This document shows positions 3,964-26,918 of a stretch of DNA of 36,199 nt, piece after piece. Origin of the DNA: Streptomyces viridosporus (GTDB lineage: Bacteria; Actinomycetota; Actinomycetes; Streptomycetales; Streptomycetaceae); NCBI RefSeq assembly GCF_002078235.1, contig NZ_MSGP01000202.1, forward strand, positions 360 through 36,558, given 5' to 3'. The notes under the pieces are model-generated. The model saw only the letters and a program-made list of their open reading frames with translations, ran no database searches and was not told the DNA's origin. The position numbers were made by a program, and so were the translations under genes. Each line of letters opens with the position of its first letter. Position 1 is the stretch's first letter.

Positions 3964-4005
3964 CGGGGACCGGAAACGGGGCAGTGGCCGCCGCGCCGGT
4001 CCCCG
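3964..4005 (-). terminator. Inverted repeat just after the flavin reductase stop
   Basis: Arms CGGGGACCGG (3964-3973) and CCGGTCCCCG (3996-4005) are perfectly complementary over 10 bases. The structure begins 7 bases beyond the stop of the minus-strand flavin reductase, so it is the probable end of the P450 operon. Confidence 0.5.
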
Positions 4006-4011
4006 GCCCGC

Positions 4012-5181
4012 TCAGGGCTGGAGCACGGGCTGCTCTGCTTCCGCTTCCCGGGTCAGGCGGCACAGTTCGGCGGCCAGGGCCTCGATCCGGGATCCGGAGG
4101 CCGGCGGGAGCTGGCACAGCCGGAGCATGAGTTCGCACCGTCCGTGCTCGTTCCGGATGGGGGCCACCAGGCTCGCGCCCTCGTACTGCCTCTCCGGTTC
4201 GAGGGCGACCGGCCGGAGGTCCTCCACCGCCACCCGGAGCATCGCCTGGATCTCGCGTTGTTCCGCCGGGGTGACCCCGGCCACGCCGTACTCGGTCAGG
4301 GCGGGGAAGAGCAGCCCGTCCCTCGTGTCCCCGGCGTAGGAGCCGGCCCAGCCGTGTGTGCGCGCGTGCTCCAGGCGTTCCCGGGAGATGCTCAGCAGCT
4401 CCTCGCCCGCGGTCCTCGCCCGGTCCGTCCACTGCTCGACCTCCGCCTCGGGAGCGCCGATCAGGAACACCTCGCCGAAGGGAGGCGTGAGCGGCAGCTT
4501 CGAGCCGAGGATCGTGGAGGTCGGCACGTTCGGGCCGGCGACCGTGGCCACGGCCACGGCGTGGTCGTTGACCCTGGCGTAAGCGGTCACCTCGCCGCGG
4601 GCCGCGTGCGCGAGGCGCTGCATGCCGTCGCGGATGTGCTGCACGGTCCGCACGCTCTCGGCCACGATCGCGTCGCTCGGCGCGACGAAGGACCCCGGGA
4701 CGAAGCCGCCGAACCCTCCCTGGAAGAACAGCAGCGGGGCGACCGGACGACGGATCTCCAGGCTCTCGACGAAACCGGTCACGAAGTAGTGGTCCCCTGC
4801 CGGGGTGCAGGACTCGAGGCTGCAGTCGATGCTGCACACCACGTCCGGGAGCACCGGCGACCCGTTGCCGGAAGGCGACCACTCCAGTCCCTCGAACCTC
4901 CTGTCCGCGGGCCGGGACAGCGCCCTGCAGAGGTGTTCCTGGTCGTGGGCGAGGATGCTGACGGTGAAGCGCCCCGACTTCCTGATCGCGGCGAAGCTCG
5001 AGGAGCCCCGTGCGGGCAGGAAGCCGACGAGGGGCGGGTCGAGGGACACCGAGGTGAAGGTGCCCACGATCAGCCCGACGGGATCCCCGTCCTCGTCGGT
5101 ACTGGCGACCAGGGCCACGCCCGTGGGGTGGTGCCCGAGGGCCTGCCGGAAGGCGGCGGAGTCCACCGCGCGGCCGCTCAC
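4012..5181 (-). CDS. Flavin reductase fused to an IclR-type effector domain
   Basis: Residues 1-163 form a flavin reductase domain of the HpaC/DszD type: FRQALGHHPTGVALV at the start, FTSVSLDPPLVGF around 42-54, and the family signature GDHYFVTGFVESL near 129. These reductases use NAD(P)H to supply reduced FMN or FAD to two-component monooxygenases. About 220 more residues follow (170-389) that are absent from simple reductases. Their layout, including LPLTPPFGEVFLIGAPEAEV, resembles the ligand-binding domain of IclR regulators, without a DNA-binding HTH. By analogy with the C1 reductase of Acinetobacter p-hydroxyphenylacetate hydroxylase, whose C-terminal domain senses the substrate, this may be an aromatic-gated reductase. 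The likely partner is the monooxygenase at 16205-17485. The start is GTG overlapping the thioesterase stop (GTGA). Confidence 0.82.
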   Translation of the reverse strand: MSGRAVDSAAFRQALGHHPTGVALVASTDEDGDPVGLIVGTFTSVSLDPPLVGFLPARGSSSFAAIRKSGRFTVSILAHDQEHLCRALSRPADRRFEGLEWSPSGNGSPVLPDVVCSIDCSLESCTPAGDHYFVTGFVESLEIRRPVAPLLFFQGGFGGFVPGSFVAPSDAIVAESVRTVQHIRDGMQRLAHAARGEVTAYARVNDHAVAVATVAGPNVPTSTILGSKLPLTPPFGEVFLIGAPEAEVEQWTDRARTAGEELLSISRERLEHARTHGWAGSYAGDTRDGLLFPALTEYGVAGVTPAEQREIQAMLRVAVEDLRPVALEPERQYEGASLVAPIRNEHGRCELMLRLCQLPPASGSRIEALAAELCRLTREAEAEQPVLQP

Positions 5182-5618
5182 GGGTGGCTCGCTTCGGGCT
5201 CGGAGGCCGTGGCCAGCGCGCGAATCTCCTCCGGCCAGGGCGTGGCCCGACCGCTGGAACGGTCGGTCAGCACGAAGACGGCCCGGGACGAGGCGACCAG
5301 CCGCGTGCCCACCAGCATCCGCTGCGTGAGCCCCAGCGAGCTGCGGCCGACCCGGTCCAGACGGGTCTCGGTGGTGAGCGTCGCGGGGTGGTGGACCTGA
5401 CCCTTGAAGTCCACCTCCAGCCGGGCCAGAGCGATGATCGGATCGAATCCCACCACCGGCCTCACCCGCTCGGTCAGGAACGTGTAGCGCGCGTTGGCGA
5501 GGATGTCGGTGAACGCGGTGTTGCCCATGTGGCGTTGGAAGTCGAGGTCGCTCACCCGGAGCGTGTCCTCGACGACGTGTGCGGCGGGCCCCGAGGGCCC
5601 GGTGCTCGACTGACCCAT
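5178..5618 (-). CDS. Acyl-CoA thioesterase, hotdog fold
   Basis: A 146-residue single hotdog protein of the 4-hydroxybenzoyl-CoA thioesterase/YbgC type. The opening VSDLDFQRHMGNTAFTDILA matches the family helix motif; the usual catalytic Asp in a D-x-x-G-H-x-N/V-N pattern appears as DFQRHMGN. It would hydrolyse an acyl-CoA made by the ligase or transferase of this locus, or rescue CoA from dead-end esters. It lies 11 bases after the crotonase gene, preceded by GAGGAC, and its stop overlaps the flavin reductase GTG. The substrate is not evident from sequence. Confidence 0.85.
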   Translation of the reverse strand: MGQSSTGPSGPAAHVVEDTLRVSDLDFQRHMGNTAFTDILANARYTFLTERVRPVVGFDPIIALARLEVDFKGQVHHPATLTTETRLDRVGRSSLGLTQRMLVGTRLVASSRAVFVLTDRSSGRATPWPEEIRALATASEPEASHP

Positions 5619-5629: not shown

Positions 5630-6403
5630 TCAGCCGGCCTGAGCGGCCTTGACGGAGGCGCCGAACTCCTTCAGCGCCTGGGCACGGTACTCACGCATCT
5701 CCTCGTTCGCCTCACGGCCCCGCACGAGACCCTCGGCCAGCGGCAGGTCCGCGACCGCGTGGAACAACCGCTTGGTGGCCTGGAGCGACATGGGCACCTG
5801 TCCCGCCAGGGCCTCGGCGATCCTCATCGCCTCGGTGAACTCCTCGCCCTCCGGGACGACCCGCGTGACCATGCCCATCCGCTCGGCCTCCTCGGCGTCG
5901 ACCAGGCGCCCGCTGGCCACCAGCTCGAAACCCGCCTTGCGGCCGAGCTGCTTGGTCAGGTTGGCCATCACCACCGCCGCGACCAGACCGTGCTTGATCT
6001 CGGGGTAGCCCATGCGCGCGTTGGCCGACGCGACGGTGATGTCGCAGGCCAGGGCCAGCCCGCAGCCGCCGCCGACGGCGTACCCGTGAACGGCCGCGAT
6101 CACCGGCTTGGAGATCTCGGGAATGGTCTTGTGCAGACCGTAGGTGAGCCCGGCGCGGTACTCGACGCGTTCGGTGTTGTCGGGCGTGAGCTCGGCGAAC
6201 TCACCGGTGTCGGCGCCCGTGCAGAAGGACGTCCCCGCCCCGCGCACGACCACCGCACGGACCTCGTCGTCCCGGTCGGCTCCCCGCAGCTCTTCGATCA
6301 GGCGCTCGTAGAGCGCGCTGTCCATGGCGTTGAGCTTGCGGGGACGGTTGAGGGTGAGCACCCGCACATGGCCCAGGCGCTCGACAAGGAGGTTTTCTTC
6401 CAT
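5630..6403 (-). CDS. Enoyl-CoA hydratase/isomerase family protein (crotonase)
   Basis: A 257-residue crotonase-fold protein acting on acyl-CoA esters. The oxyanion-hole segments are present (SFCTGADTGEF near 59-69, and HGYAVGGGCGLALACDI at 106-122). One of the two glutamates used by true hydratases (rat Glu144, in GGGCELA) is Gly115 here, while the second (Glu164 equivalent, in GYPEI) is kept as Glu135. This pattern suggests isomerase, lyase or another crotonase chemistry rather than simple hydration. The ATG at 6403 has GAGG eight bases upstream; the longer open frame reaching 7624 runs through the dioxygenase genes in the wrong frame. It is fifth-from-first in the P450 operon order, 20 bases after the PcaG-like gene. 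Confidence 0.88.
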   Translation of the reverse strand: MEENLLVERLGHVRVLTLNRPRKLNAMDSALYERLIEELRGADRDDEVRAVVVRGAGTSFCTGADTGEFAELTPDNTERVEYRAGLTYGLHKTIPEISKPVIAAVHGYAVGGGCGLALACDITVASANARMGYPEIKHGLVAAVVMANLTKQLGRKAGFELVASGRLVDAEEAERMGMVTRVVPEGEEFTEAMRIAEALAGQVPMSLQATKRLFHAVADLPLAEGLVRGREANEEMREYRAQALKEFGASVKAAQAG

Positions 6404-6423
6404 GGTTCGGCCTCGTTCGTGTT

Positions 6424-6930
6424 CTAGTCGATGGAGAAGAAGACGGACTCGCGCTCGCCCTGCAGCCTGATGTCGTACCGCAGGTGCCGCTCGACGCCGG
6501 TCGGCTGCGCGATCAGGAGGGGACGCCTGGCCTCGGGGACCTGCCGCAGGATCGCGTCGGACCGGTTGGCCTGTTCCTCGTCGGGGAAGTACACCTTCGT
6601 CACCAGCGGCCCCGCCAGACCGCGCGTGAAGAGGAAGATGCTCAGGTGCGGCGCCAGCCGGTTGCCGCCCGGCAGCGTCACCGGTTCCGGCTTCCGCACG
6701 ACGGCGCGGAACCGGCCCTCGAGGGTGCGGACACGGCATGCCTGCTCCCGGCTCCAGAGCTCGAGGAACGCGCCGTAGTCGACATGGTCCCCCCGGCCGT
6801 CGAGGACCATGCCCTCGAGCACGACGGCGGCCGGGTCGTCCTCGGCGACGGTCCGGGTGATGTCCGGCGGGGTCATGGCGAAGCCGAACAGGGGACCGCA
6901 GGTCTGCGCGGGTGTGAGAATCATGGCCAT
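6424..6930 (-). CDS. Intradiol dioxygenase alpha subunit, PcaG-like and shortened
   Basis: It resembles the non-catalytic alpha chain of protocatechuate 3,4-dioxygenase: TPAQTCGPLFGF at the start, APHLSIFLFTRGL in the middle, VTKVYFPDEEQAN and the end LRYDIRLQGERESVFF. At 168 residues it is about 30 shorter than Pseudomonas putida PcaG (about 200). Most of the loss is in the loop that normally reads VWQADANGEYQD, here compressed to FLELWSREQACRV. The alpha-chain tyrosine that lines the active site (Tyr16 in TAGPYVHIG) is Leu. It starts 3 bases after the beta gene stop, so the two are co-translated. I call it an intradiol dioxygenase subunit but would not assume protocatechuate as substrate. 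A second possible ATG lies two codons in. Confidence 0.85.
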   Translation of the reverse strand: MAMILTPAQTCGPLFGFAMTPPDITRTVAEDDPAAVVLEGMVLDGRGDHVDYGAFLELWSREQACRVRTLEGRFRAVVRKPEPVTLPGGNRLAPHLSIFLFTRGLAGPLVTKVYFPDEEQANRSDAILRQVPEARRPLLIAQPTGVERHLRYDIRLQGERESVFFSID

Positions 6931-6933: not shown

Positions 6934-7719
6934 TCACTCGAACGGGGTCGCGGCCGAGCCGCGGAGCACGATGTCGAACCGGTACGCCAGCGCCGAGGGG
7001 TTCCTGGTCAGCAGGGCGCCAGGGTCGGTTCGCCGCGGGGGGTGAACGACCGCGCCGCTGCCGTCGACGGTGGGGAGGGCGCGAGCGGGACCGAACGACT
7101 CCGCGATGGAGTTCTCCTCGTCGAGCACGGCGATCAGGCGCTCCTGGCCCCGCCGGTCCGGGATGGCGTTGATCATGCGGTCCATGCGGATCAGCGGGTC
7201 GCCCTCGAAGTACATCTGCGTGACGAGCCGGCTGGAACACCCGGCACCCAGGACCGAGAAGTGGATGTGGGACGCCCGCCAGGCACGCGCGCCGTCCTTG
7301 AACATCGCCGGGTACGGGCCCGGACGGATCGTCAGGAAGCGGTAGTGGCCCCGGCTGTCGGTCAGGCAGCGTCCCGCGCCGTAGAAGTTGGCGTCGAGCG
7401 GAAAGCCCGACACGTCCATCGAGTCGCGGTAGCCACCGGCGGCGTTGGCCTGCCAGATCTCGACCAGGGCGTTCTTGACCGGGACGCCGCCGCTGTCGGT
7501 GACGGTTCCGTGCACGATGACCCGGGTGCCGATGGGCTCCGAGACGCCCTGCACCGTGAGGTCGTGGTCGAACGCTCCGAGCTTCAACTGCCCGAAGGCG
7601 GGACCCGGCAGGTGGTGGAACCACTCCTTGTCCAGGTGAACCGGCGCCGCCAACGGCACGCGCAGGGTGCTGACGCTGGAGTTGGAATCCGCCAACGGCG
7701 GATCGAACGATTCGATCAT
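6934..7719 (-). CDS. Intradiol dioxygenase beta subunit, PcaH-like (iron-binding)
   Basis: The catalytic subunit of a protocatechuate 3,4-dioxygenase-type enzyme, 261 residues, cleaving a catechol between its hydroxyls with non-haem Fe(III). All four iron ligands can be placed: Tyr97 (NAAGGYRDS), Tyr136 (RPGPYPAM), His151 and His153 (SHIHFS), plus the catalytic-pocket Arg148. The family end YRFDIVLRG is present. Differences from P. putida PcaH are a two-residue insertion between Tyr136 and His151 and loss of the pocket tryptophan that follows Tyr447 (PYPW becomes PYPA). The start is ATG 7719, overlapping the reductase stop as ATGA and preceded by GGGAGAGGG. No cycloisomerase, decarboxylase or enol-lactonase gene accompanies it. 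Confidence 0.9.
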   Translation of the reverse strand: MIESFDPPLADSNSSVSTLRVPLAAPVHLDKEWFHHLPGPAFGQLKLGAFDHDLTVQGVSEPIGTRVIVHGTVTDSGGVPVKNALVEIWQANAAGGYRDSMDVSGFPLDANFYGAGRCLTDSRGHYRFLTIRPGPYPAMFKDGARAWRASHIHFSVLGAGCSSRLVTQMYFEGDPLIRMDRMINAIPDRRGQERLIAVLDEENSIAESFGPARALPTVDGSGAVVHPPRRTDPGALLTRNPSALAYRFDIVLRGSAATPFE

Positions 7720-8954
7720 GAGGTTGCCCTCTCCCATGCTTGTGCGGCGATGGTCCTGAGGCCGAGGCTCTCGTCCGCCAGGTCGGTGCGCGGGGGACTC
7801 GCGCCGCGGTCCAGGAGTCTTCTGGCGGTCAGGAAGGCGCCGGGGTCGTTCAGCGCCTCGACGGCGATCAGGCGGTCTTCGCGGTAGTGCCACAGGGAGA
7901 AGCCCGCGCCGTCCTCGGCGGTTCTCCTGATGACGCGGTCGCCGTCGCCGGACAGGCCGACGAACTGCAGCCGGACGTCGTACTGGTCCGACCAGAACCA
8001 GGGCGCCGGCCGCGGGGGCACCGCGCGCCCCGCGATGTGGGCCGCCACCGCCCGTGCCATGTACTCCGCGTTCTGGACCGACTCCAGGCGGAGCCGGCCG
8101 CCCCGCCAGGGGAAGTTGGCGCAGTCGCCCACCGCGTACACCGACGGGGCGCTGGTCCGGCCGAGGCCGTCGACGGTGATGCCGTTGTCGACCGTGAGGC
8201 CGGCCCCGGCGGCGAGTTCGGCGGCCGGTTCGGCGCCGATCCCCACCAGGACGAGATCGGCCTCGATCCGGGTCCCGTCGGTGAGCACGCCGGCGACCAC
8301 GCGGCCGTTCTCACCGGCCAGTGAGCCGAGCTCGCGCCCTTCCAGGACGTCGACCCCGTTGCGCAGGTGCTCCGAGCGGAGATGGTCGGCGGCTTGCTCG
8401 CTGACGACCCGCTGGAGCAGGCGGCCGCGCTCGACCACGGTGACGCGACGCCCGAGGCGAGCCGCCACCGAGGCGAACTCGAGGCCGATGAAGCCGCCAC
8501 CGAGAACGAGGACCGCCTTCGCCTCGTCGAGCGCCGCGCGCAGGCCGTCGGCATCGGCGAGCGTCCGCAACACGTGCACGCCCTCCAGCCCGTCGACCAG
8601 CGCGTCGGGCAGTCGTCGTGCACGGGCACCGGTCGCCAGGACCAGATGGTCGTAGCGACGGGTGCCTCCGTCCGCCGTGACCACGACCTGCCGTGCGACA
8701 TCGATCCGGTCGACCTGTTCGCCGGTGCGCAGGTTCACCTCGGGCTTGACGCGGCCGGCGGGCGTGCCCAGCCTGAGGTGCTCCGCTTCGACCTCGCGCA
8801 GCAGGTAACGCTTGGACAAGGGCGGGCGCTGGTAGGGGACGGCCGGTTCGGCGCCGACCAGGGTGACCGGAGCGTCATAGCCCGCGGCACGCAACTGCAT
8901 GGCCGTGGTGTGGCCGGCCTGTCCGGCGCCGATGATCACGGTTCCGTGTTCCAT
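7716..8954 (-). CDS. NAD(P)H:ferredoxin reductase, FAD-dependent
   Basis: A 412-residue putidaredoxin-reductase-type flavoprotein that passes electrons from NAD(P)H to the ferredoxin encoded just upstream. The FAD Rossmann motif GAGQAG is at 9-14, followed by PYQRPPLSKRYL, a hallmark of this family. The NAD(P)H motif GGGFIG is at 152-157, and the second FAD motif YAVGDCANF is near 273-281. The C-terminal reductase domain is present and the length is typical. It lies 9 bases after the ferredoxin stop and overlaps the PcaH-like gene. Its role is almost certainly to power the P450 of this operon, though it could also serve another oxygenase. Confidence 0.93.
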   Translation of the reverse strand: MEHGTVIIGAGQAGHTTAMQLRAAGYDAPVTLVGAEPAVPYQRPPLSKRYLLREVEAEHLRLGTPAGRVKPEVNLRTGEQVDRIDVARQVVVTADGGTRRYDHLVLATGARARRLPDALVDGLEGVHVLRTLADADGLRAALDEAKAVLVLGGGFIGLEFASVAARLGRRVTVVERGRLLQRVVSEQAADHLRSEHLRNGVDVLEGRELGSLAGENGRVVAGVLTDGTRIEADLVLVGIGAEPAAELAAGAGLTVDNGITVDGLGRTSAPSVYAVGDCANFPWRGGRLRLESVQNAEYMARAVAAHIAGRAVPPRPAPWFWSDQYDVRLQFVGLSGDGDRVIRRTAEDGAGFSLWHYREDRLIAVEALNDPGAFLTARRLLDRGASPPRTDLADESLGLRTIAAQAWERATS

Positions 8955-8963: not shown

Positions 8964-9278
8964 TCACCCGGCCGGCGGTACTTCGACGGTGATGCCGTCC
9001 AGTTCGGACCGGGCGGAGATCTGACAGCTCAGGCGGCTGCAGTCGCGTCGCGGCGCGTCGCCGAAGTCCAGCAGATCGGCCTCGATCGGGCCGGGCTCAC
9101 CGGTCGGGTGGTCGGACACGACGTAGACGTGGCAGGTGGCACACATCATGCCGCCACCGCATTCACCGACGATGCCGGGAACGCCGTTGGCCACGGCCGC
9201 CTCCATCAGCGTGACGCCGTCGCCGACCTCGGCGGTGATGCGCTCACCGTCAGCAGAGATCCACGTCACCTCAGCCAT
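8964..9278 (-). CDS. [2Fe-2S] ferredoxin, putidaredoxin type
   Basis: A 104-residue plant/adrenodoxin-type ferredoxin. The cluster ligands are Cys40, Cys46, Cys49 and Cys85 (C-X5-C-X2-C then C), in GECGGGMMCATCHVY and CSRLSCQI; this is the putidaredoxin arrangement. I chose the ATG at 9278 because GGAGG precedes it by 8 bases; an in-frame ATG five codons upstream would place the start inside the ribosome site. It overlaps the P450 stop by 8 bases. With its flanking genes it forms a complete class I P450 electron chain. Confidence 0.94.
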   Translation of the reverse strand: MAEVTWISADGERITAEVGDGVTLMEAAVANGVPGIVGECGGGMMCATCHVYVVSDHPTGEPGPIEADLLDFGDAPRRDCSRLSCQISARSELDGITVEVPPAG

Positions 9279-10536
9279 GATCAGAACCTCCAAGCCGGAC
9301 CTTCAGACTCTGCGGGCCGCGGTGGGCCATCGTCCTTGTCCATTCGGGTTGTTGTCCCTCCACCAGCTCCATGCCGGGGAAGGCGTCGACGAGTTCTTCC
9401 AGCACGATCCGCATTTCCGCGCGTGCCAGTGGTGCGCCCATGCACACGTGGATGCCGTATCCGAAGGACAGGTGGTCCCGTGCGTTGACGCGATGGATGT
9501 CGAAGTCCGACGGCCGTGCGTACCGGTCCTCGTCGTGATTGGCCGAAGCGAGGCTCAGCAGGACCTTGCTTCCCGCGGGGATGGTCACGCCACTGAGCTC
9601 GACGTCCTCGAGGGCCTTGCGGCGCCAGGTCAGGACCGGGGTGCTGTGCCGGAGGACCTCTTCGACGGCACGAGGGATCAGTGCCGGGTCCGCGACCAGT
9701 TCCTCCCAGGCCTCGCGGTGCTCCAGCAGCGTGAGGATGCTGATGGTCAGACCGTTGGTCACGGCCTCGTGACCGGCCAGCAGCAGCGCGAACACCAGGC
9801 AGACGATCTCGTTCTCGGTCAGCACCGAGTCGTCGTCACCGCGGAGCTCCAGCAGCCTGCTGGGGTAGTCGTCGCGCGGTGCCCGCTTGCGGTCCTCGAC
9901 GATCCCCTTGCAGAAGTGGAAGAAGTCGTTCAGCTCGTGGCCGGCATCGATCATCTCCTGCCTGGTCGGCTTGCCCCAGATCATCGTGGCGCGGTTGAGC
10001 GCCCATCGCTTGATCAGGAGCGGGTCGACGTCGTCGACGCCGAGGAGCATGAACACCACGCGCGCGGGCATCTCGTGGGTCAGTTCGGCGACGATGTCGA
10101 CCTCGTCCTTGCCGCGCAGGCCGTTCACGTACTCCTGCACCAGTGCGCGGATCCGCGGCTCGTAGTCGCGGTAGCGCTTGGGGTTGAGGAACTGGCCGGC
10201 GCACTGCCGGATCCGGCTGTGCTTGGGCCGGTCGGTGTTGGACTGCACCGGCTCGACGGTGAAGCCGTTGTCCGCGAGGAACCGGGTCAGCTCCTCGGGG
10301 TGGGCCTCCAGCGGGTCCAGGACGTTCGCGGCCGAGAACCGTGCGGGGTCCTTGAACACCGAGAGGACGTCCTGCCGTCTCGTCACGACCCAGTAGTCGG
10401 TCTCCTCGTTGTAGAACACCGGAGCCTCGTGACGGGCGAGCGAGAAGAACTCGTAGGTGCCGTCCTGGTCGAACGGCTTGAACCCGCTGGTCATGGGACA
10501 TCGCGCGGCCGTCGGCCGCTGGTCCACCACCGCCAT
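9271..10536 (-). CDS. Cytochrome P450
   Basis: A 421-residue soluble bacterial P450. The haem-binding loop SFGYGIHVCMGAPLAR has the thiolate Cys365; the ExxR pair is Glu293/Arg296 (EEVLRH). The I-helix reads AGHEAVT (254-260): the conserved threonine of the acid-alcohol pair is Ala258, as in EryF (CYP107A1), where substrate helps proton delivery. It is the first gene of the operon, ahead of its own ferredoxin and reductase, and two TTGTTG-N6-CAACAA-type operators precede it. The ATG at 10536 follows GGAGAAGG; the frame stays open upstream but crosses the operators. Substrate unknown: aromatic O-demethylation or hydroxylation would fit the ring-cleavage genes downstream. I do not assign a CYP family. 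Confidence 0.93.
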   Translation of the reverse strand: MAVVDQRPTAARCPMTSGFKPFDQDGTYEFFSLARHEAPVFYNEETDYWVVTRRQDVLSVFKDPARFSAANVLDPLEAHPEELTRFLADNGFTVEPVQSNTDRPKHSRIRQCAGQFLNPKRYRDYEPRIRALVQEYVNGLRGKDEVDIVAELTHEMPARVVFMLLGVDDVDPLLIKRWALNRATMIWGKPTRQEMIDAGHELNDFFHFCKGIVEDRKRAPRDDYPSRLLELRGDDDSVLTENEIVCLVFALLLAGHEAVTNGLTISILTLLEHREAWEELVADPALIPRAVEEVLRHSTPVLTWRRKALEDVELSGVTIPAGSKVLLSLASANHDEDRYARPSDFDIHRVNARDHLSFGYGIHVCMGAPLARAEMRIVLEELVDAFPGMELVEGQQPEWTRTMAHRGPQSLKVRLGGSDHG

Positions 10537-10571: not shown

Positions 10572-10589
10572 TTGTTGTTTTGTCAACAG
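10572..10589. promoter_or_regulatory. Operator box 1 (TTGTTG-N6-CAACAG)
   Basis: TTGTTG-TTTTGT-CAACAG is one of four related palindromes in the window. It lies 36-53 bases upstream of the P450 start, over or just past the predicted transcription start, where a bound repressor would block initiation. Confidence 0.7.
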
Positions 10590-10596
10590 GTGGCCG

Positions 10597-10625
10597 AGTG
10601 TGTCTGGCGCTTGTTGCTTTGTCAA
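10597..10625 (-). promoter_or_regulatory. Candidate P450 operon promoter
   Basis: On the minus strand TTGACA (10625-10620) and CACACT (10602-10597) are 17 bases apart. The -35 hexamer is embedded in operator box 2, and the expected start near 10590 abuts box 1. Confidence 0.5.
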
Positions 10626-10628
10626 CGG
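10611..10628. promoter_or_regulatory. Operator box 2 (TTGTTG-N6-CAACGG)
   Basis: TTGTTG-CTTTGT-CAACGG, centred 39 bases from box 1. It contains the TTGACA -35 element of the P450 promoter on the minus strand. Confidence 0.7.
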
Positions 10629-10870
10629 GTGCGGAGGTGCGACGGCCGCGGTTCTGGAGCAATGGCGCATTCGGGCCGGTCGGCGGGTGTCGAAGTCGGT
10701 CGGCGGCCGGACGCGGGGGCGCGTGGCGTCGCCGCCCTGCGTGCCCGCCGCGAGTGCGGGCGGCCCCGGCGGTGCCGCTGTGACGGCCTGAGCAGGGCGA
10801 ATCCCTCACCGGTCGAGATCGACGGCCGTCGTGAAAGTGAGTCGCCTGTTCGAGGAGTTGTCAAACTGAC

Positions 10871-10886
10871 TCTTGACAGGTCAAGA
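10871..10886. promoter_or_regulatory. Palindrome upstream of the MHS transporter
   Basis: TCTTGA-CAGG-TCAAGA is a perfect inverted repeat with 6-base arms about 145 bases before the transporter ATG. It contains TTGACA (10873-10878); a weak -10, CACCGT, lies 18 bases on. It differs from the TTGTTG boxes, so the transporter may have its own control. Confidence 0.4.
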
Positions 10887-10928
10887 CGGATCCGGCCACC
10901 GTGTGCTCTTGATCACTCAACATCCCGT

Positions 10929-10964
10929 CGAGCCGCCTTGTCCCGGATGCGGCAGGGCGGCTCG
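10929..10964 (+). promoter_or_regulatory. Stem-loop in the transporter leader region
   Basis: CGAGCCGCC (10929-10937) pairs with GGCGGCTCG (10956-10964) around an 18-base loop, about 67 bases before the transporter ATG. It could be an untranslated-leader hairpin or attenuator; no riboswitch class is recognised. Confidence 0.35.
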
Positions 10965-11030
10965 TTCCACACGGCTCGAGTGCCGAGCGGCGGCACTTTC
11001 GTAGCCGCACCCCCGTCGAGAGAGGACGCC

Positions 11031-12386
11031 ATGGGAGCGAAACAGACTGCTGAGCCCGATGTGGCGGTCGCCGTGGCGGCCGACCGCTCTCCGGAGAGCG
11101 AGGAGAAGCAACGCAGACGGGTCGCCTACGCCACGCTGGTGGGCACCACCATCGAGTGGTACGACTTCCTGATCTACGCGCAGATCGCGGCCCTGCTCTT
11201 CGGCGACCTGTTCTTCAGCGGGCTCGGCCAGTGGAGCCAGCTCACCGCCCTGGCGACCGCCGGGGTGAGCTTCTTCTTCCGGCCGCTCGGCGCCATCGTC
11301 TCGGGCTACCTGGGTGACCGGTTCGGCCGCCGCATCGTCCTGGTGCTGACGCTCGGGCTGATGGGCGTCTCGACCACGCTGGTCGGTCTTCTGCCGACGG
11401 CCGCGGCGATCGGGATCGCGGCTCCGATCCTGCTCATCCTCCTGCGTTGCCTCCAGGGGCTCTCCGCCGGCGGCGAGTGGGGCGGCGCGGCCATGCTCGC
11501 CGTGGAGCACGCCAGGGCCGGTCACCGCGGCCGGATGGGAGCCTTCCCGCAGATGGGCGTTCCGCTCGGGATGATGCTCGCCATCGTGGTGATGGGCGCC
11601 TTCAACGCCATCCTCGGCAAGGCCGCGTTCGACGAGTGGGGCTGGCGCCTGCCGTTCCTCTTCTCCGTCGTGCTGGTCGTGGTGGGGCAGTACGTGCGGT
11701 CCAAGGTCGCCGAGTCGCCGGTCTTCACCGAGCTCGAGGAGTCGCGGACCAAGGCGAAGACGCCCCTGCGTGAACTGCTGAGTGCGCACCGCGGCAAGGT
11801 TCTGGCCGCCGCCGCCACGATGGTGGGCAACATCGCCGCCGGCTACATGATCGTCGGCGGCTTCGCCCTGGCCTACGTGACCAGCGCCCACGACCTTCCC
11901 CGCGCGCACGTGCTGACGTTGCTCTTCGCGGCCAGCGCCGTGTGGATCGGGTGCACCTACGTCGGCGCGTGGTGGAGTGACCGCTCCGGCCGCCCGATCG
12001 TCTACAAGGTCGGTTACGCGACGCTGTTCGTGCTGCTCCTGCCGCAGTTCTGGCTTCTCAGCCAGGGCACCGCGCTGAGTGTCGGCGTGGCCCTGCTGAC
12101 CCTGGCGGTGCCGTTGGGCCTGACCTACGGCCCCCAGTCGGCGCTCTTCGCGGAGATGTTCCCCGCCAGGATCCGGCTCTCCGGGGCGTCGCTCGCCTAC
12201 GCCGTCGGCGCCGTCCTCGGTGGAGCGTTCGCGCCGATGATCGCCGAGGCGCTCACCCAGGGATTCGGCACGGTCCTCGCGGTCGCGCCGTACCTGATGG
12301 GGATGGCACTGGTCAGCCTGGTGACGGCCTTCTTCCTCACGGACCGCTCCGGAGGGCCGCGGGAGGAGCCGACGACCTCCCCTTGA
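11031..12386 (+). CDS. MFS transporter, metabolite:H+ symporter (MHS) type
   Basis: A 451-residue, 12-helix membrane protein of the MHS family (ShiA, ProP, KgtP, CitA relatives), which import organic acids with protons. Family marks seen: GTTIEWYDFLIYAQIAALLF in helix 1, the GYLGDRFGRRIVL loop between helices 2 and 3, and LQGLSAGGEWGGAAMLAVEH in helix 4. The last cytoplasmic loop reads PARIRLSGASLAYAVG, as in MHS proteins. The ATG at 11031 follows GAGAGAGG. The frame is open upstream to 10572 but that stretch holds operators and no transporter sequence. It lies between the P450 operon and the CoA-transferase operon and probably imports the substrate of locus 1; an aromatic or organic acid is likely but not identified. 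Confidence 0.9.
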   Translation: MGAKQTAEPDVAVAVAADRSPESEEKQRRRVAYATLVGTTIEWYDFLIYAQIAALLFGDLFFSGLGQWSQLTALATAGVSFFFRPLGAIVSGYLGDRFGRRIVLVLTLGLMGVSTTLVGLLPTAAAIGIAAPILLILLRCLQGLSAGGEWGGAAMLAVEHARAGHRGRMGAFPQMGVPLGMMLAIVVMGAFNAILGKAAFDEWGWRLPFLFSVVLVVVGQYVRSKVAESPVFTELEESRTKAKTPLRELLSAHRGKVLAAAATMVGNIAAGYMIVGGFALAYVTSAHDLPRAHVLTLLFAASAVWIGCTYVGAWWSDRSGRPIVYKVGYATLFVLLLPQFWLLSQGTALSVGVALLTLAVPLGLTYGPQSALFAEMFPARIRLSGASLAYAVGAVLGGAFAPMIAEALTQGFGTVLAVAPYLMGMALVSLVTAFFLTDRSGGPREEPTTSP

Positions 12387-12462
12387 GCGGGACGGCTGCC
12401 GCGCAGTGTCCGGGGCGTCTCTCCGGGTCGGAACTCCGACGCGGCGATGAGGCGCCCCGATG

Positions 12463-12480
12463 CTGTTGACAAGACAACAA
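12463..12480. promoter_or_regulatory. Operator box 3 (CTGTTG-N6-CAACAA)
   Basis: CTGTTG-ACAAGA-CAACAA matches the boxes in front of the P450 operon. It contains the TTGACA -35 element of the CoA-transferase operon promoter. Confidence 0.7.
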
Positions 12481-12494
12481 GGTGACCCGAGGAT
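12466..12494 (+). promoter_or_regulatory. Candidate CoA-transferase operon promoter
   Basis: TTGACA (12466-12471) and GAGGAT (12489-12494) are 17 bases apart. The expected start, near 12501, falls in operator box 4. The geometry mirrors the P450 promoter: one box over -35, one over the start. Confidence 0.5.
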
Positions 12495-12514
12495 GTTGTT
12501 GACACCACAACAAC
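12495..12514. promoter_or_regulatory. Operator box 4 (GTTGTTG-N6-CAACAAC), best copy
   Basis: A perfect palindrome with 7-base arms around ACACCA, centred 33 bases from box 3 and about 60 bases before the CoA-transferase GTG. It is the most symmetric of the four copies and probably the closest to the regulator consensus. Confidence 0.72.
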
Positions 12515-12572: not shown

Positions 12573-13760
12573 GTGGGAGTTCAGGGAAACGAGGGAGCGG
12601 GCAAGCCGCTCGGCATGCTTCCGGGCCTGAAGGTCGTCGAGATGGGCCAGAACCTGGCCGCCCCGTACGCTTCGTTGATCCTCGGTGACCTCGGCGCCGA
12701 CGTCATCAAGGTCGAGAAGCCCGGGGGGGACGACGCGCGCGGCTGGGGCCCGCCGTTCGTGGGCGACAGCTCGGTCAGCTTCCACATGATGAACCGGAAC
12801 AAGCGGTCCGTCGTGCTGTCGCTGGACGAAGAGGCCGACTACAAGGTCTTCCTCGACCTCATCCGCGACGCGGACGTCTTCATCCACAACCTGCGCCCGG
12901 GCGTCGAGAACAAGCTCAAGGCCGACGCCGAGACGCTCAGGGCCGTGAACCCCCGGCTGATCTACTGCTCGATGTCGGCGTTCGGCCACACCGGTCCGAT
13001 GGCGAACCGCCCCGGCTACGAGCCGCTGCTGCAGGCGTTCTCCGGACTGATCGCCATCAACGGGGACCCGAGCGGCCCGCCCTCCCGGGTGGGACCGTCG
13101 GTCGTCGACCTCGGAACGGGCATGTGGACCGTGATCGGTGTCCTCGCCGCGGTCCTGGAGCGCCAGAGAACGGGCGTCGGCGGTGAGGTGAGGACCTCGT
13201 TGCTGGAGACGGCCGTCAGCTGGGCGGGACGGCACATCGCGGACTACGGGGCGACCGGCACCATCCCGCCGCGGGTCGGCACCGGCCACAACTCGCTGAC
13301 TCCCTACGGTGCGTTCGAGGCGGCGGACGGCCCGTTCATCATCGCCGCGGGCAACGACCGCCTGTTCGCCAAGCTGGCCGCGGCGCTGGAGAGGCCCGAG
13401 TGGGTGAGCGACCCCCGCTTCGCCACGAACGCCGCGCGCAACGAGCACCGGGCCACGCTGCTGCCGCTCATCTCCGAGCTCGTCGGCCGCAGGACCGTCA
13501 CCGACTGGATCGCGTGCCTGGAGCGCGCCGGCGTGCCGTGCGCACCCATCCACTCGATCCCGCAGGTGCTGGAGCACCCCCAGACCGAGGCCATGGACAT
13601 CGTCCTGGACGGCGCCGACGACCGGCTCAAGCTCACCGGACTGCCGCTGAGCATCAACGGCGAGCGAGCGGGCTTCGGCACCACGGCGCCCGCGCTCGAC
13701 GAGTACCGCGGCGAACTGGTCGACTCCGCGTCCGCACCCGAGCCGGGGAACGCACGATGA
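12573..13760 (+). CDS. CaiB/BaiF family III CoA-transferase (locus 1)
   Basis: A 395-residue family III CoA-transferase, moving CoA between acyl-CoA and a free carboxylic acid through an aspartyl-CoA anhydride. Features seen: LGDLGADVIKVEKPGGDDAR after the first strand, FIHNLRPGVENKL, and RVGPSVVDLGTG with the predicted catalytic Asp179. The GTG start at 12573 follows AGGAGAAAG. Its stop overlaps the ATG of the citryl-CoA-lyase-like gene (ATGA), so the two are probably translated together and may act consecutively. It shares this pairing with a second copy at 22115-23320. The acid substrate is unknown; a citrate-like acid is suggested by its partner only. Confidence 0.9.
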   Translation: MGVQGNEGAGKPLGMLPGLKVVEMGQNLAAPYASLILGDLGADVIKVEKPGGDDARGWGPPFVGDSSVSFHMMNRNKRSVVLSLDEEADYKVFLDLIRDADVFIHNLRPGVENKLKADAETLRAVNPRLIYCSMSAFGHTGPMANRPGYEPLLQAFSGLIAINGDPSGPPSRVGPSVVDLGTGMWTVIGVLAAVLERQRTGVGGEVRTSLLETAVSWAGRHIADYGATGTIPPRVGTGHNSLTPYGAFEAADGPFIIAAGNDRLFAKLAAALERPEWVSDPRFATNAARNEHRATLLPLISELVGRRTVTDWIACLERAGVPCAPIHSIPQVLEHPQTEAMDIVLDGADDRLKLTGLPLSINGERAGFGTTAPALDEYRGELVDSASAPEPGNAR

Positions 13761-14533
13761 CCGGCGGCCGCACCCACATCGCGACGTCCGACGCGACCTC
13801 GATCACCGTCCGCGGGAAGGACCTGTGCGAGGACCTGATCGGCCGGCACAGCTTCACGGACATGATCTACTTCCTGTCCGTCGGCCGGATGCCCACGCCG
13901 CCCGAAGCACGGGTCCTCGACGCCTGCCTGGTCACGCTCATGGAGCACGGGTGGACCCCGACGTCGATCATCACCAGGCTGGCGGCCGACAGCGTGCCGG
14001 ACGACGTGCAGGTGGCGATCGCCGCGGGGCTGCTCTCGGTCGGGCCGGTGTTCGCCGGAACCATGGAGGGCTGCGCCGAGCTGCTGGTGGAGGGCGTCGA
14101 GAGCGGGGAGGACCCGGACGCCTACTGCAAGCGCGTGGCGCAGGAGTACGTGAGCGCCAAGCGGCCGGTGCCGGGATTCGGGCACCGCCTGCACAAGCCG
14201 GACGACCCGCGCGCGGTCACCCTCCTCGAGGTGGCCGAGCGGAACGGGATCAACGGCCGCTACGTCGACCTGCTGCGGAGGCTGAGCCGCGAGGTGGACG
14301 CGGCCCGGGGCGGCCGTCACCTCACCATCAACGCCACGGGTGCCATCGCCGCGCTGTTCCTGGAGATCGGGATCCCGCTGAAGGCCGGCCGCGGACTCGC
14401 CGTGGTGTCCCGGGCCGGCGGTCTGCTCGGCCATGTGGTGGAGGAGTTCGCCCAGCCCTCCGCCCGCACCATCTGGCAGCTCACCCGGGAGGGCATCCCG
14501 TACTCGGACCCCCAGGAGACCCCGTATGACTGA
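13757..14533 (+). CDS. Citryl-CoA-lyase-like protein, catalytic residues altered (locus 1)
   Basis: A 258-residue citrate-synthase-fold protein of the kind often named citryl-CoA lyase. The substrate loop PGFGHRLHKPDDPR is intact with His143. The segment that is LHGGA in citrate synthases reads VFAGT (99-102 region), closer to the FGGA of ATP-citrate lyase. Where citryl-CoA lyases have the catalytic Asp (N-x-D-G), this protein has INATG with Thr194. So acid-base chemistry must differ, or the reaction is not a normal citryl-CoA cleavage. It begins inside the CoA-transferase stop (ATGA) and its end overlaps the ligase ATG by 8 bases. Likely function is carbon-carbon cleavage of a CoA ester; this is inference. 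The longer open frame from 13400 is not used. Confidence 0.8.
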   Translation: MTGGRTHIATSDATSITVRGKDLCEDLIGRHSFTDMIYFLSVGRMPTPPEARVLDACLVTLMEHGWTPTSIITRLAADSVPDDVQVAIAAGLLSVGPVFAGTMEGCAELLVEGVESGEDPDAYCKRVAQEYVSAKRPVPGFGHRLHKPDDPRAVTLLEVAERNGINGRYVDLLRRLSREVDAARGGRHLTINATGAIAALFLEIGIPLKAGRGLAVVSRAGGLLGHVVEEFAQPSARTIWQLTREGIPYSDPQETPYD

Positions 14534-16136
14534 GGAGTCGGGCGATCGGTACACCTCGGCCGAGGTGCTCGCCCTCTACCGGGAGCACGGCGGCACCCTG
14601 ATCGACCTCGTGGCGAGCCGGGCCGAAGCGGATCCGGACCGTCCGATGATGGTGTGCGGTGAGCGTTCATGGACGTGGGCCGAGGCCGCCGACGCCACGC
14701 GGCGACTGGCCGGTCACCTCCGGCACAGGGGGGTGGAGGCCGGGGACCGCGTGCTCGTCATGGGCCGCAACAGCGACTGGCACGTACTCGCCCTGCTGGC
14801 CGCCGCCGGGCTGGGGGCGGTGTTCGTGCCCGTCAACCCCGATTTCAAGGTGGAGGAAGCGGCCTACGTGCTCCGTCAGTCGGAGGCCCGGGCGATCCTC
14901 TGCGACGAGGCCGCCGAACCGGTCGCCGAGGCCGCACGCGAGGAGGTCCACGGCTCCGCCTGGATCCAGCGGCTCGGCGACGAGCTCCTCGACGCCGAGC
15001 CGGCCGAACCGGTCGGCGGTGACCGGCGGGCTCCGTGCGTGATGATCTACACCTCGGGAACCACCGGATTCCCGAAGGGCGTCCTGCACAGCCAGCAGAG
15101 TGTGATCGCCGCGGGGGAGAGCTTCGTGGAGCGGGTCCGCCTGCAGCCGCACGACCGGGTGCTCACCGTCCTTCCGCTGTTCCACGTCAACGGCCTGCTC
15201 TATTCGGTGGCCGGAGCGCTCGCCGCCGGTGCCACGCTCCTGCTGGAGCCGCGCTTCTCCGCCTCGGGCTTCTGGCCCACGGTCAAGCGGCTCGGCGCGA
15301 CGCAGGTCAACATGATCGAGGCGATCAGTGCGATCCTGCTGAACCGGCCTCGCGACGAGTACGTGCCCGACCACGGCCTGCGCAAGATCTACGGGATCCG
15401 GCAGGCGAGCACGCGGGCGTTCCGGGAGCGGTTCGACGTCCCCCACCTGGTGGGCGGGTACGGCATGACCGAGATCCCGGGCGTCCTGAGCACGCCCTAC
15501 GACGCCGAGGCCAGGCCGGGCAGCATGGGCCGGCTCTGCCGGCACCCTGATCCCGCACGGCCGTGGGCGCGGTGCCGCATCGTGGACGAAGCCGGTGCGG
15601 ACGTTCCCGACGGCGAGGTCGGGGAGCTCTGGGTACGGACGCCCCTCGTGATGCTGGGGTACTTCCGCGAACCCGAGCAGACCGCCGACGCCTTCGAAGG
15701 CGACTGGTTCAGGACCGGCGACCTGGTGCGACGCGACCAGGACGGCTGGTACTACTTCGTCGCGCGGAAGAAGGACATCATCCGCCGACGGGGCGAGAAC
15801 GTCTCCGGGGCCGAGCTCGACCGGGTGGTCGCCGAACACCCGGAGGTGGTGCTGGCGGCCGCGGTCGGGGTGCCGTCCGAGATGGGCGACGAAGACATCC
15901 TGCTGGTCGTCACGCCCCGTGAGGGCTCCCTCCTGACCGAGCAGGAGGTCGCGGACTTCTGCGGTGCCCGGCTGGCCCGGATCAAGCGGCCCCGCTACGT
16001 CCTCCTCACCGGGGACATGCCGCTCACGCCGACCGGGAAGGTCGCCAAACACCTCCTCAGGGCGGACGCCGCCCTGCGGGACCGGGCCCGCGAGGTCGAC
16101 GTCCCCGTCGAGCAGCGGCCGGCCGGGCCCAGGTGA
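14526..16136 (+). CDS. Acyl-CoA ligase (class I adenylate-forming)
   Basis: A 536-residue AMP-forming acid:CoA ligase. ATP-binding P-loop YTSGTTGFPKGVLHS, GGYGMTEIPG, the hinge region TGDLVRRDQDGWYYFVARKK and the C-terminal catalytic lysine in LTPTGKVAKHLL are all present, so it should be active. It is nearest in style to crotonobetaine/carnitine- or aryl-acid CoA ligases; substrate not determined. It begins at ATG 14526, 8 bases inside the preceding gene. Having both an ATP-dependent ligase and a CoA-transferase in one operon suggests two different acids are activated, for example the imported substrate and a ring-cleavage product. Confidence 0.9.
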   Translation: MTEESGDRYTSAEVLALYREHGGTLIDLVASRAEADPDRPMMVCGERSWTWAEAADATRRLAGHLRHRGVEAGDRVLVMGRNSDWHVLALLAAAGLGAVFVPVNPDFKVEEAAYVLRQSEARAILCDEAAEPVAEAAREEVHGSAWIQRLGDELLDAEPAEPVGGDRRAPCVMIYTSGTTGFPKGVLHSQQSVIAAGESFVERVRLQPHDRVLTVLPLFHVNGLLYSVAGALAAGATLLLEPRFSASGFWPTVKRLGATQVNMIEAISAILLNRPRDEYVPDHGLRKIYGIRQASTRAFRERFDVPHLVGGYGMTEIPGVLSTPYDAEARPGSMGRLCRHPDPARPWARCRIVDEAGADVPDGEVGELWVRTPLVMLGYFREPEQTADAFEGDWFRTGDLVRRDQDGWYYFVARKKDIIRRRGENVSGAELDRVVAEHPEVVLAAAVGVPSEMGDEDILLVVTPREGSLLTEQEVADFCGARLARIKRPRYVLLTGDMPLTPTGKVAKHLLRADAALRDRAREVDVPVEQRPAGPR

Positions 16137-16204
16137 ATCCCTCACACGTCCCGTCAGTGGACCTGTCACAGCAGCCTTGCACGACTGCGGAAAGGAACGC
16201 CCCC

Positions 16205-17485
16205 ATGACCGAGCTTCTCGCGCTGCCCCCCGACCGGTTGACCGGCGACGTCGAACCGACCGGAGAGGTCCACGCGTTCCTCCTGGGCGACTTCGGCGCC
16301 TCGCCGATGGTGCGGCGGGCCCGGGACCTGGTCCCGGTCCTCAAGGAGCGAGCGGCCCGGCAGGCGCAGCACGACCGGCTGCTGCCCGAGACGATCGCGG
16401 ACATGCAGCGGGCCGGCTTCTTCCGGATGCTGCAGCCCCGTGCCTACGGGGGGTACGAACTCACTCCCATCGAGTCCTTCGAAGTGACCTCCGTCCTCGC
16501 CGAGGGCGACCCCTCGGTGGGATGGGTCCTGGGCGTGATCGGCATCCACCACTTCCACCTGGGTTTCTTCGACGAACGCGCGCAGTCCGATGTCTGGTCC
16601 TCGGACCCGACCGCCCTGATCAGCTCGCCGTACGCACCCCAGACGGCCAGGCGGGTGGACGGCGGGTACCGCCTGTCCGGGCGGTGGTCGTTCTCCTCCG
16701 GCAGCGACTACTGCGACTGGGCACTGCTCGGGGCCAACGTCGAGGGTGAACCGACCCCCGGACCGGGACCGGTCGGCAGCCACGTGCTGCTGCTCCCGCG
16801 CGAGGACTACGAGATCGTCCACAACTGGGACGTGTCCGGTCTGCGGGCCACCGGCAGCAACGACATCGTGGTCGAGGACGCGTTCGTTCCCGACCACCGG
16901 AGCCTGACCTGGACCGAGGTGCACCAGGGAACCGCACCGGGCCTGGCGCTCAACAAGGGGCTGCTGTTCAAGCTCCCCTTCTTCCAGGTCTTCTCACGGG
17001 CCACCCAGGCGCCGACGGCGCTCGGCGCCCTGAAGGGCATGGCGGACGCCCTGGTGGAGTTCCACCGGAGCAAGCGCCGGGCCAGGATCGACCCGGCCAC
17101 CGCCCTGGCGTTGGCGGAGGCATACTCCTTCGTCTCGGAGGCGAAGGGGCGGCTGTACGCCAACTACGCCGCGATGCTCTCCGAGGCCGGCGGAGGTGCC
17201 GCGGTCGGTGACGAGCGGCTGGAGGAGTTCCGCTTCCAGTCCGCGCACATCCCCGCACGCGCGGCCCGGTACGGCACCGAGTTGTACCGCGTCGCGGGCG
17301 GCACCGGCATCTACAACGCACAGCCGTTCGGACGTTATCTGACGGACCTCATGGCGACGCAGACCCACGCGATCAACAACTACCAGGCCCGGGCGATGGA
17401 CTGGATCGGCCCGCTCCTCGACACCACGGGGACCGTCGTGCCGACACCGCTCGGAGTGGTCAAGGAGCAGGAACGTCCTGCCTGA
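16205..17485 (+). CDS. Group D flavin-dependent monooxygenase, oxygenase component
   Basis: A 426-residue acyl-CoA-dehydrogenase-fold protein of the HsaA / p-hydroxyphenylacetate hydroxylase C2 type, which uses free reduced flavin to hydroxylate a phenol ortho to its hydroxyl. Seen: LPETIADMQRAGFFRMLQPR with YGGYEL, EGDPSVGWVLGVIGIHHFHL, LSGRWSFSSGSDYCDWALLG, and WDVSGLRATGSNDIVVEDAF, all typical. A histidine-rich C-terminal segment (ATQTHAINNY) matches the family. I chose ATG 16205 because AAAGGA precedes it; a GTG at 16133 overlaps the ligase stop (GTGA) and would add 24 residues. The obvious electron partner is the flavin reductase at 4012-5181, in the divergent operon with the same operators. 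It is the last gene before a strong bidirectional hairpin. Confidence 0.87.
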   Translation: MTELLALPPDRLTGDVEPTGEVHAFLLGDFGASPMVRRARDLVPVLKERAARQAQHDRLLPETIADMQRAGFFRMLQPRAYGGYELTPIESFEVTSVLAEGDPSVGWVLGVIGIHHFHLGFFDERAQSDVWSSDPTALISSPYAPQTARRVDGGYRLSGRWSFSSGSDYCDWALLGANVEGEPTPGPGPVGSHVLLLPREDYEIVHNWDVSGLRATGSNDIVVEDAFVPDHRSLTWTEVHQGTAPGLALNKGLLFKLPFFQVFSRATQAPTALGALKGMADALVEFHRSKRRARIDPATALALAEAYSFVSEAKGRLYANYAAMLSEAGGGAAVGDERLEEFRFQSAHIPARAARYGTELYRVAGGTGIYNAQPFGRYLTDLMATQTHAINNYQARAMDWIGPLLDTTGTVVPTPLGVVKEQERPA

Positions 17486-17541: not shown

Positions 17542-18045
17542 TCAATCCGGCAGGTTCTCGGCGTTCTCGCCGAAGAGCCTGAGCATGTGGTTGAACTTCT
17601 CCACGTCCTCGGGGGTGAATCCGGCGAGCACCTGCTTGTGGCGTTCCAGCGCCGACCTGAGGATCCGGTCGTGGAGCTCGTAACCCGCGGGCGTGAGGTG
17701 CCACAGCCGATTGCGGGGATTGCTGCCGATGACCTTGGCCTCCGCCAGGCCCAGCTTGGCGAGCTTGCTCAGGGACCGGCTGACCGCGCCCTTGTCGTAG
17801 CCCACGGCGGGGCTGGCGGCGGTCACCGGGACGTCGGGTTCCTTGCAGAGCATCACCAGCATCCGCCACTCCATCGCGCTGATGCCGAACTCGTTCTGGT
17901 AGTGCCGGGAGAAGCTCCGGTTGAAGCGGTTGGCGGCCCACACCAGGAGGACTGTCGGGTTGTCGGCCAGGTTCAGCGTCTTGGACTTCTTCCCGTCACC
18001 CACCTCGACCTCCTCGACAATGAACTCATCGAGTTCGTCGCTCAT
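17542..18045 (-). CDS. MarR family transcriptional regulator
   Basis: A 167-residue winged-helix regulator. The HTH is around residues 72-97 (VTAASPAVGYDKGAVSRSLS), followed by the wing (LAEAKVIGSNPRNRLWHLTP). The N-terminal 25 residues are acidic and not part of the fold. MarR proteins commonly repress aromatic-acid pathways and release DNA on binding the acid or its CoA ester. It is convergent with the CoA-transferase operon and is the nearest regulator to the four TTGTTG-N6-CAACAA boxes, whose size and symmetry fit a MarR dimer. However, its own upstream region carries a different palindrome, so that assignment is unproven. Confidence 0.9.
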   Translation of the reverse strand: MSDELDEFIVEEVEVGDGKKSKTLNLADNPTVLLVWAANRFNRSFSRHYQNEFGISAMEWRMLVMLCKEPDVPVTAASPAVGYDKGAVSRSLSKLAKLGLAEAKVIGSNPRNRLWHLTPAGYELHDRILRSALERHKQVLAGFTPEDVEKFNHMLRLFGENAENLPD

Positions 18046-18069: not shown

Positions 18070-18093
18070 GATGCGAGACGGCTGTCTCGCATC
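18070..18093. promoter_or_regulatory. Perfect palindrome upstream of MarR
   Basis: GATGCGAGAC-GGCT-GTCTCGCATC, 10-base arms with a 4-base spacer, 25 bases before the MarR ATG. It is a candidate operator for autoregulation, or a stable leader hairpin. A partial third repeat, GGATGCG, follows at 18097-18103. Confidence 0.6.
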
Positions 18094-18328
18094 CGTGGAT
18101 GCGCAGTCTCTTGCTCGGCGAACAGTCTAGGCAGGCCATGGAGCCCGCCCCGCTCACCCGTTGTGGTGATCATGCCGCTCCCGGGGCGGCCGTGTGAAGG
18201 ACCCGGTCGTGACCGGTGTGCCGGGTCCCGGGGGGCGACGGTGCCGAGCGGGCTCGGGGCGGTGGGCCGGCGGCGGGGGAGCACCGGACCCCGACGGCTC
18301 CGATCCGCCCCGTCGCGGCCCGACGACG

Positions 18329-24270: not shown

Positions 24271-26918
<2,648 letters not shown>

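Follow-up and report, generated by a model that had tools for sequence, protein, structure and literature searches.

Are the two catabolic operons on opposite strands of a 36,199-nucleotide stretch of Streptomyces viridosporus DNA (contig NZ_MSGP01000202.1; the window) controlled together, and if so by which protein? Operon 1 begins with a cytochrome P450 gene and includes an intradiol dioxygenase, and operon 2 begins with a CoA-transferase gene and contains an acyl-CoA ligase and a flavin monooxygenase. A preliminary description had noticed two boxes of the pattern TTGTTG-N6-CAACAA at each promoter and proposed that one regulator drives both operons as a single regulon and hence as one pathway. 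The comparisons made here strongly support a single regulator for both operons: the box pairs recur in five clusters, the genome has no further exact copy of the motif, and the motif is linked to MarR genes. The MarR-family protein encoded at 17542-18045, to which that description had already pointed, is the best candidate and, judging from sequence, very probably the protein that binds the boxes. That the operons form one pathway has become more likely.

All four boxes lie where they had been placed (see table), the one given as 12495-12514 being the box 12496-12513 with one further palindromic base on each side, and the centre-to-centre distances of 39 (P450) and 33 (CoA-transferase) bases were correct. 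They depart from TTGTTG-N6-CAACAA at one (10572-10589), two (10611-10628), one (12463-12480) and no (12496-12513) positions and, read toward their own genes, are one sequence, GTTGACA-N2-R-CAACAA, with identical orientation to the gene and TTGACA in each. In a genome-wide scan, the specific form GTTGACANNRCAACAA has exactly four copies among 8,097,217 bases, every one in the two operon promoters; at one or two mismatches there are seven further genome matches against nine for the reversed control, that is, no excess. The tandem form of the pattern was found in one of 61 genomes searched, the window's own, twice. Box pairs in the same orientation occur three times in 276 genomes, two of them in the window, and inverted pairs not at all in those 276, numbers too small to judge an orientation preference of the downstream box. 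It is hardly credible that the boxes are promoter repeats or owe their likeness to a shared TTGACA. Every box does contain TTGACA, and the loose pattern, at up to three mismatches, is only moderately enriched, with seven sites in the window against 1.9 expected (about 3.7-fold; seven was reached in one of 100 shuffles). Against this, the arms outside TTGACA are also conserved, and all five clusters retain the downstream member of each pair though no -10 is seen after it. Chance and mere promoter elements were rejected on the four exact copies, all of them here, and on the matrix scan of a fifth cluster described below.

Within each promoter, the TTGACA of the -35 is part of the upstream box and the downstream box coincides with the predicted start site, as the preliminary description had it. 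In the five genomes compared, this TTGACA is followed at 17-18 bases by CACACT or CAGACT (P450) or by GAGGAT or CAAGAT (CoA-transferase), the window's two hexamers having been chosen by eye and matching a -10 weakly. The downstream box then starts 7-9 bases past the predicted -10 in the P450 promoter and 1-2 bases past it in the CoA-transferase promoter. MarR operators are palindromes of about 16-20 bp lying over promoter elements of their targets, and the palindromes here, likewise of about 16-20 bp and paired in five clusters, overlap predicted promoter elements at their target genes.

The clusters compared are those of the window, of two further Streptomyces (G154 and G166), of Rhodococcus sp. 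HM1 (G174) and of a second Rhodococcus (G814). Box pairs stand at both promoters in five of five clusters with this MarR at 75% identity or more. The orthologue is rare: it was found in 3 of 392 sampled genomes of the genus (E 1e-40; the window's, G154 and G166, the same three as among 150), in 1 of 396 of the phylum (E 1e-25; the window's own), in 2 of 18 genomes in the genus of G174 (E 1e-40) and in 2 of 401 in its family (E 1e-30). In G154 and G166 the cluster extends from the thioesterase to the second citryl-CoA lyase-like gene, the proteins tested being 85-96% identical, and both CoA-transferase boxes and the P450 downstream box are present. G166 has an extra GTTGAC between the boxes of one promoter, the real box distance there being 33. 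The HM1 cluster has the same genes and box pairs, with a MarR 76% identical. Its Rhodococcus counterpart G814 (MarR 77% identical, all 17 proteins tested present) served as a blind test, in which a matrix made from the 16 boxes of the first four clusters was scanned over 40 kb, and the top four sites were the four expected boxes (32.9, 31.4, 31.3 and 30.2 bits). Ranked after them were three sites, upstream of marR (13.5 bits), at the transporter gene (12.4 bits) and in the gap between iclR and a second MFS gene, MFS2 (11.5 bits). Ten simulated sequences of 36.2 kb gave a mean of 0.5 sites above 8 bits and a maximum of 16.8 bits.

The link between motif and MarR comes from a wider sample. A scan of named genomes for tandem GTTGACAN3CAAC, a pattern that demands TTGACA in both boxes and the same orientation, yielded at least 117 loci, taken as stretches of up to 8 kb, in which MarR open reading frames (ORFs) were sought at E 1e-3 with a profile built from the window's MarR and its relatives, 21 proteins in all; all counts on these loci are among the matches listed. 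A MarR ORF is present in 96 of the 117 and lies within 300 bases of the boxes in 85. For random positions in the same loci the corresponding figure averaged 16.8 and never exceeded 31 in 1000 trials, and this control rejected the idea that the link is a property of any stretch of the same DNA. TANNNT occurs 16-19 bases after the first TTGACA in 77 loci and after the second in 7, a bias that fits a -35 in the upstream box and a start site in the downstream box; the window's arrangement therefore recurs widely beside MarR genes. Such tandem boxes (L003-L119) are found in Clostridia, Paenibacillus, Kribbella, mycobacteria, Rhodobacterales and others, and the commonest centre distance is 36 (20 of 88 tabulated loci). 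These promoters resemble the window's in having TTGACA in both boxes and a -10-like hexamer after the upstream one. They differ in that the window's targets are operons at a distance and not marR itself, and in that T mostly precedes CAAC elsewhere, in 172 of 222 boxes, the window having a purine in four of four.

Six loci whose MarR is closely related to the window's have this purine in 10 of 12 boxes, compared with 49 of 222 in the others (p 2e-5), a value that overstates independence because the six loci were picked after the 88-locus table had been seen (85 within 300 bases plus L107, L098 and L020) and are related in sequence. L109, whose MarR relative (114 bits) lies 3.5 kb from the boxes, was left out of that table, though L107, with its MarR at 5 kb, was in; it has a purine in both boxes, and counting it with the near relatives changes the figures to 12 of 14 and 47 of 220. 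Within the five clusters the purine is present in 4/4, 3/4, 3/4, 2/4 and 2/4 boxes. The nearest MarR proteins outside these clusters, among the matches listed, are from Rhodobacterales: two from Ruegeria (51-52% identical), one from Nioella (45%) and one from Roseobacter (43%), whose genes abut or overlap tandem boxes. Three of the four (G175, G176 and G177) have MarR divergent from a P450 gene, with the boxes between the two 5' ends or at them; the longest P450 ORF of G175 runs into a box. Such loci (L165, L166 and L167 from Ruegeria, Roseobacter and Nioella, with MarR 43-51% identical) are perhaps a small relative of the regulon described here.

Several observations weigh against control by this MarR through paired boxes. 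The protein itself barely exceeds the PF12802 cut-off (27.6 bits against 27) and has no NCBIfam match at 1e-10. CACACT and GAGGAT are weak -10 hexamers. The P450 upstream box reads CATC for CAAC in its right arm in four of the five clusters (G154, G166, G174 and G814), with the left arm kept. Among the listed tandem-box loci, 21 of 117 have no MarR ORF in the stretch of up to 8 kb, and in 11 more the nearest one is over 300 bases away; absence from a locus is not absence from the genome, because L096, a stretch of Streptomyces sp. NWU339 contained letter for letter in the G166 contig, is part of a contig whose MarR lies outside L096. The three weaker G814 sites (11.5-13.5 bits) do not surpass the simulated maximum, so they rest on recurrence at the same places and not on score. 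Nor is the pair spacing constant: centres lie 39, 40, 40, 41 and 41 bases apart at the P450 promoter and 33, 33, 33, 35 and 34 at the CoA-transferase promoter (window, G154, G166, G174 and G814). The architecture, called identical in the preliminary description, is thus shared in the positions of the boxes relative to the -35 and predicted start, but not in spacing (39-41 versus 33-35). The pair seems to track the promoter rather than a fixed helix turn, which suggests two dimers blocking separate promoter elements and not one rigid assembly.

On the same side stands the IclR protein of the cluster, which is conserved in the same five clusters, and the Rhodococcus iclR/MFS2 gap has a box-like site (20.7 bits in G174, 11.5 in G814). 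We nevertheless consider it improbable that the boxes are operators of this IclR and that MarR serves something else. The divergent MFS2/iclR gap (21231-21345) carries a different sequence, GGTT-N6-AACC, at 21307, kept in G154 and G166 and present twice in the G174 gap; these are probably the IclR operators. A search of the window (plus strand, spacers of 6-8) placed the GGTT/AACC pattern, the putative IclR site, at 21307, 29133 and 35707 and in neither operon promoter; a looser copy, with a spacer of 8, lies in the G174 marR leader at 19760. The box family keeps company with MarR ORFs, as the 85 of 117 listed loci indicate, and the three Rhodobacterales stretches, of 20 kb, have boxes beside MarR and no match to the cluster IclR at 1e-8. 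Moreover, in both Rhodococcus clusters the block of PrpD, MFS2, IclR, second CoA-transferase and second lyase lies beyond the thioesterase and not beyond marR, yet marR keeps its place at the end of operon 2.

The last points on that side concern marR itself. MarR regulators commonly, though not universally, have an operator in their own promoter. In favour of MarR, a box precedes marR by about 60 bases in both Rhodococcus clusters (28.9 bits in G174, 13.5 in G814), but the matrix scan found no box above 8 bits in the marR promoter of the three Streptomyces clusters, where a decayed remnant aligns. The window's marR leader instead has a different sequence, the perfect palindrome GATGCGAGAC-N4-GTCTCGCATC, at 18070-18093. 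It differs at one base in G154 and G166, has no other copy in the window's genome within three mismatches and is not apparent when the leaders of the Rhodococcus marR genes are aligned; in Streptomyces, marR itself may have come under other control. A Streptomyces marR without a good box of its own is what one would cite for a regulator encoded elsewhere in the genome, an alternative that we rate just as improbable as IclR: the exact motif occurs at no other place in the genome, no second relative of this MarR was found there at E 0.001 (24 of 28 candidates scored), and this marR is accompanied by the boxes in both genera.

With MarR retained as the candidate, the regulon would take in both operons and is probably larger, because the MFS transporter gene between them has a weaker box pair, missed in the preliminary description, and the Rhodococcus marR promoter and iclR/MFS2 gap each carry a box. 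The transporter's upstream box aligns in five of five clusters, at 8.6 bits in the window and 13.7, 18.5, 17.7 and 12.4 (G814) in the others. Its second box scores 10.4 bits in G166 and aligns in G154 below 8 bits, being aligned in three Streptomyces and above 8 bits in two; it was not seen in the two aligned Rhodococcus clusters.

The kind of control is already familiar, and what is new is the predicted regulon of this aromatic cluster, not the mechanism. BmrR of Bifidobacterium longum, also of the MarR family, controls its own operon with ABC drug exporters, unlike the two catabolic operons here, and the likeness drawn is between operators, not proteins. HpaR, BadR and PcaV are MarR repressors of aromatic catabolism with palindromic operators over promoter elements, and in that respect resemble the system proposed here. 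BmrR is reported to bind ATTGTTG-N6-CAACAAT (PMC13118786), with the same six-base arms TTGTTG/CAACAA and spacer of six, from which the window's boxes depart at none to two positions; this likeness counts in favour of a MarR protein as their binder. The same source adds AcsR to the MarR proteins with aromatic-degradation targets and palindromic operators over promoter elements, the operator sequences it gives for BadR and AcsR differing from the window's boxes (PMC13118786). PcaV (PDB 4fht) is a distant match to the window MarR, at E 0.0014. No title recognised as dealing with this cluster or operator came up in literature searches on the cluster, on the operator letters and on BmrR.

A MarR dimer on the upstream box of each pair would cover the -35, and a second dimer on the downstream box would sit at the start site, which would keep RNA polymerase off both operon promoters and, less tightly, off that of the transporter. 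A pathway metabolite, possibly an aromatic acid or its CoA thioester, would release MarR, and its release would switch on uptake together with CoA activation and hydroxylation (operon 2), and at the same time oxidation by the P450 and cleavage of the ring (operon 1). That MarR binds the boxes as an activator, or as both activator and repressor, is compatible with MarR binding but unlikely, if marginally less so than IclR or a distant regulator. Some MarR proteins, such as BadR and SlyA, do activate, but the position of the boxes, on the -35 and at the start site, is in keeping with repression, activators tending to bind upstream of the -35 (PMC13118786).

The two operons probably serve the breakdown of an aromatic compound. 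A broader picture is possible, though we hold it tentatively and somewhat short of probable: a compact mobile regulon for an undescribed aromatic-acid pathway, with CoA activation and ring hydroxylation (CoA-transferase, ligase and HsaA-like enzyme), P450 oxidation, PcaHG-like cleavage and a citryl-CoA lyase-like step, all under one MarR double clamp on -35 and start site that a pathway intermediate releases, the same clamp being a general MarR promoter design across phyla. About a dozen genes of the aromatic cluster are hereby tied into one predicted regulon, which makes pathway and inducer testable, and a cross-phylum pattern emerges in which tandem boxes lie next to MarR genes and the upstream box incorporates the -35. 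This is useful and overturns nothing.

Operon membership was judged from gene order and spacing, and most of the specific family names rest on models scoring below their cut-off. On that basis operon 1 runs from the P450 at 10494 on the minus strand through ferredoxin, ferredoxin reductase, the PcaH-like and PcaG-like subunits and enoyl-CoA hydratase to the thioesterase, and operon 2, on the plus strand from 12573, comprises the CoA-transferase, the citryl-CoA lyase-like protein, the acyl-CoA ligase and the HsaA-like monooxygenase. The marR gene follows operon 2 on the opposite strand, and beyond it lie PrpD, MFS2, IclR, the second CoA-transferase and the second citryl-CoA lyase-like gene. The thioesterase on one side and this last gene on the other appear to bound the conserved cluster; eight proteins tested from 1-5177 and 24271-36199 of the window have no orthologue on the G154 and G166 contigs compared, one of the eight matching only the cluster IclR (26%).

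Table 1. Predicted boxes, promoter elements and genes of the cluster, in window coordinates.
Feature	Position	Strand	Sequence or family match	Remarks
P450 operon upstream box	10611-10628	-	CCGTTGACAAAGCAACAA	contains -35 TTGACA 10625-10620
P450 operon downstream box	10572-10589	-	CTGTTGACAAAACAACAA	at predicted start site; in 5/5 clusters
CoA-transferase operon upstream box	12463-12480	+	CTGTTGACAAGACAACAA	contains -35 TTGACA 12466-12471; in 5/5 clusters
CoA-transferase operon downstream box	12496-12513	+	TTGTTGACACCACAACAA	over predicted start site; in 5/5 clusters
Predicted -10, P450 operon	10597-10602	-	CACACT	17 bases from -35
Predicted -10, CoA-transferase operon	12489-12494	+	GAGGAT	17 bases from -35
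Weaker box upstream of MFS transporter gene	10870-10887	+	CTCTTGACAGGTCAAGAC	with TTGACA; 8.6 bits
Second weak box, MFS transporter gene	10906-10923	+	CTCTTGATCACTCAACAT	36 bases downstream; 13.7 bits
Degenerate box remnant upstream of marR	18108-18125	-	CTGTTCGCCGAGCAAGAG	aligns with CTGTTGACGAAACAAGAA in G174; below 8 bits
Thioesterase-like protein	5178-5618	-	PF13279	
Enoyl-CoA hydratase family protein	5630-6427	-	PF00378	true start probably inside
PcaG-like dioxygenase subunit	6424-6930	-	TIGR02423, 8.8e-30, below cut-off	no Pfam match at 1e-5
Intradiol ring-cleavage dioxygenase, PcaH-like	6934-7614	-	PF00775; TIGR02422 below cut-off	start approximate; scanned as 6934-7893
Ferredoxin reductase	7716-8954	-	PF07992, PF14759	
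2Fe-2S ferredoxin	8964-9275	-	PF00111	scanned as 8964-9293; start shortened by inspection
Cytochrome P450	9271-10494	-	PF00067	first gene of operon 1; scanned as 9271-10536
MFS metabolite/H+ symporter	11031-12386	+	PF00083; TIGR00883 below cut-off	between the operons
Class III CoA-transferase (CaiB type)	12573-13760	+	PF02515	first gene of operon 2
Citryl-CoA lyase-like protein (short citrate synthase fold)	13757-14533	+	NF004868 above cut-off	
Acyl-CoA ligase	14530-16136	+	PF00501	start by inspection; longest ORF from 14433, scanned as 14433-16136
HsaA-like flavin monooxygenase	16133-17485	+	PF08028; NF045629 below cut-off	PDB 2rfq, 2.2e-66
MarR-family regulator	17542-18045	-	PF12802	proposed box binder; matches MarR-family chain PDB 3nrv, 2.8e-13
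IclR protein of the cluster	21345-22118			

Among solved structures the best match to the operon 1 P450 is 5gwe (1.4e-84), and the P450 part of self-sufficient RhF (6ro8, 6.8e-69) belongs to the same group of matches; unlike in RhF, ferredoxin and reductase are separate genes here. A CYP116B P450 in aromatic-acid catabolism has reportedly been the subject of one study (PMC8449657). The pair of CoA-transferase and citryl-CoA lyase-like genes occurs twice, at 12573-14533 and at 22115-24270, the second beside PrpD, an MFS symporter and IclR, and this duplication might mean that a tricarboxylate-like intermediate is handled as a CoA ester.

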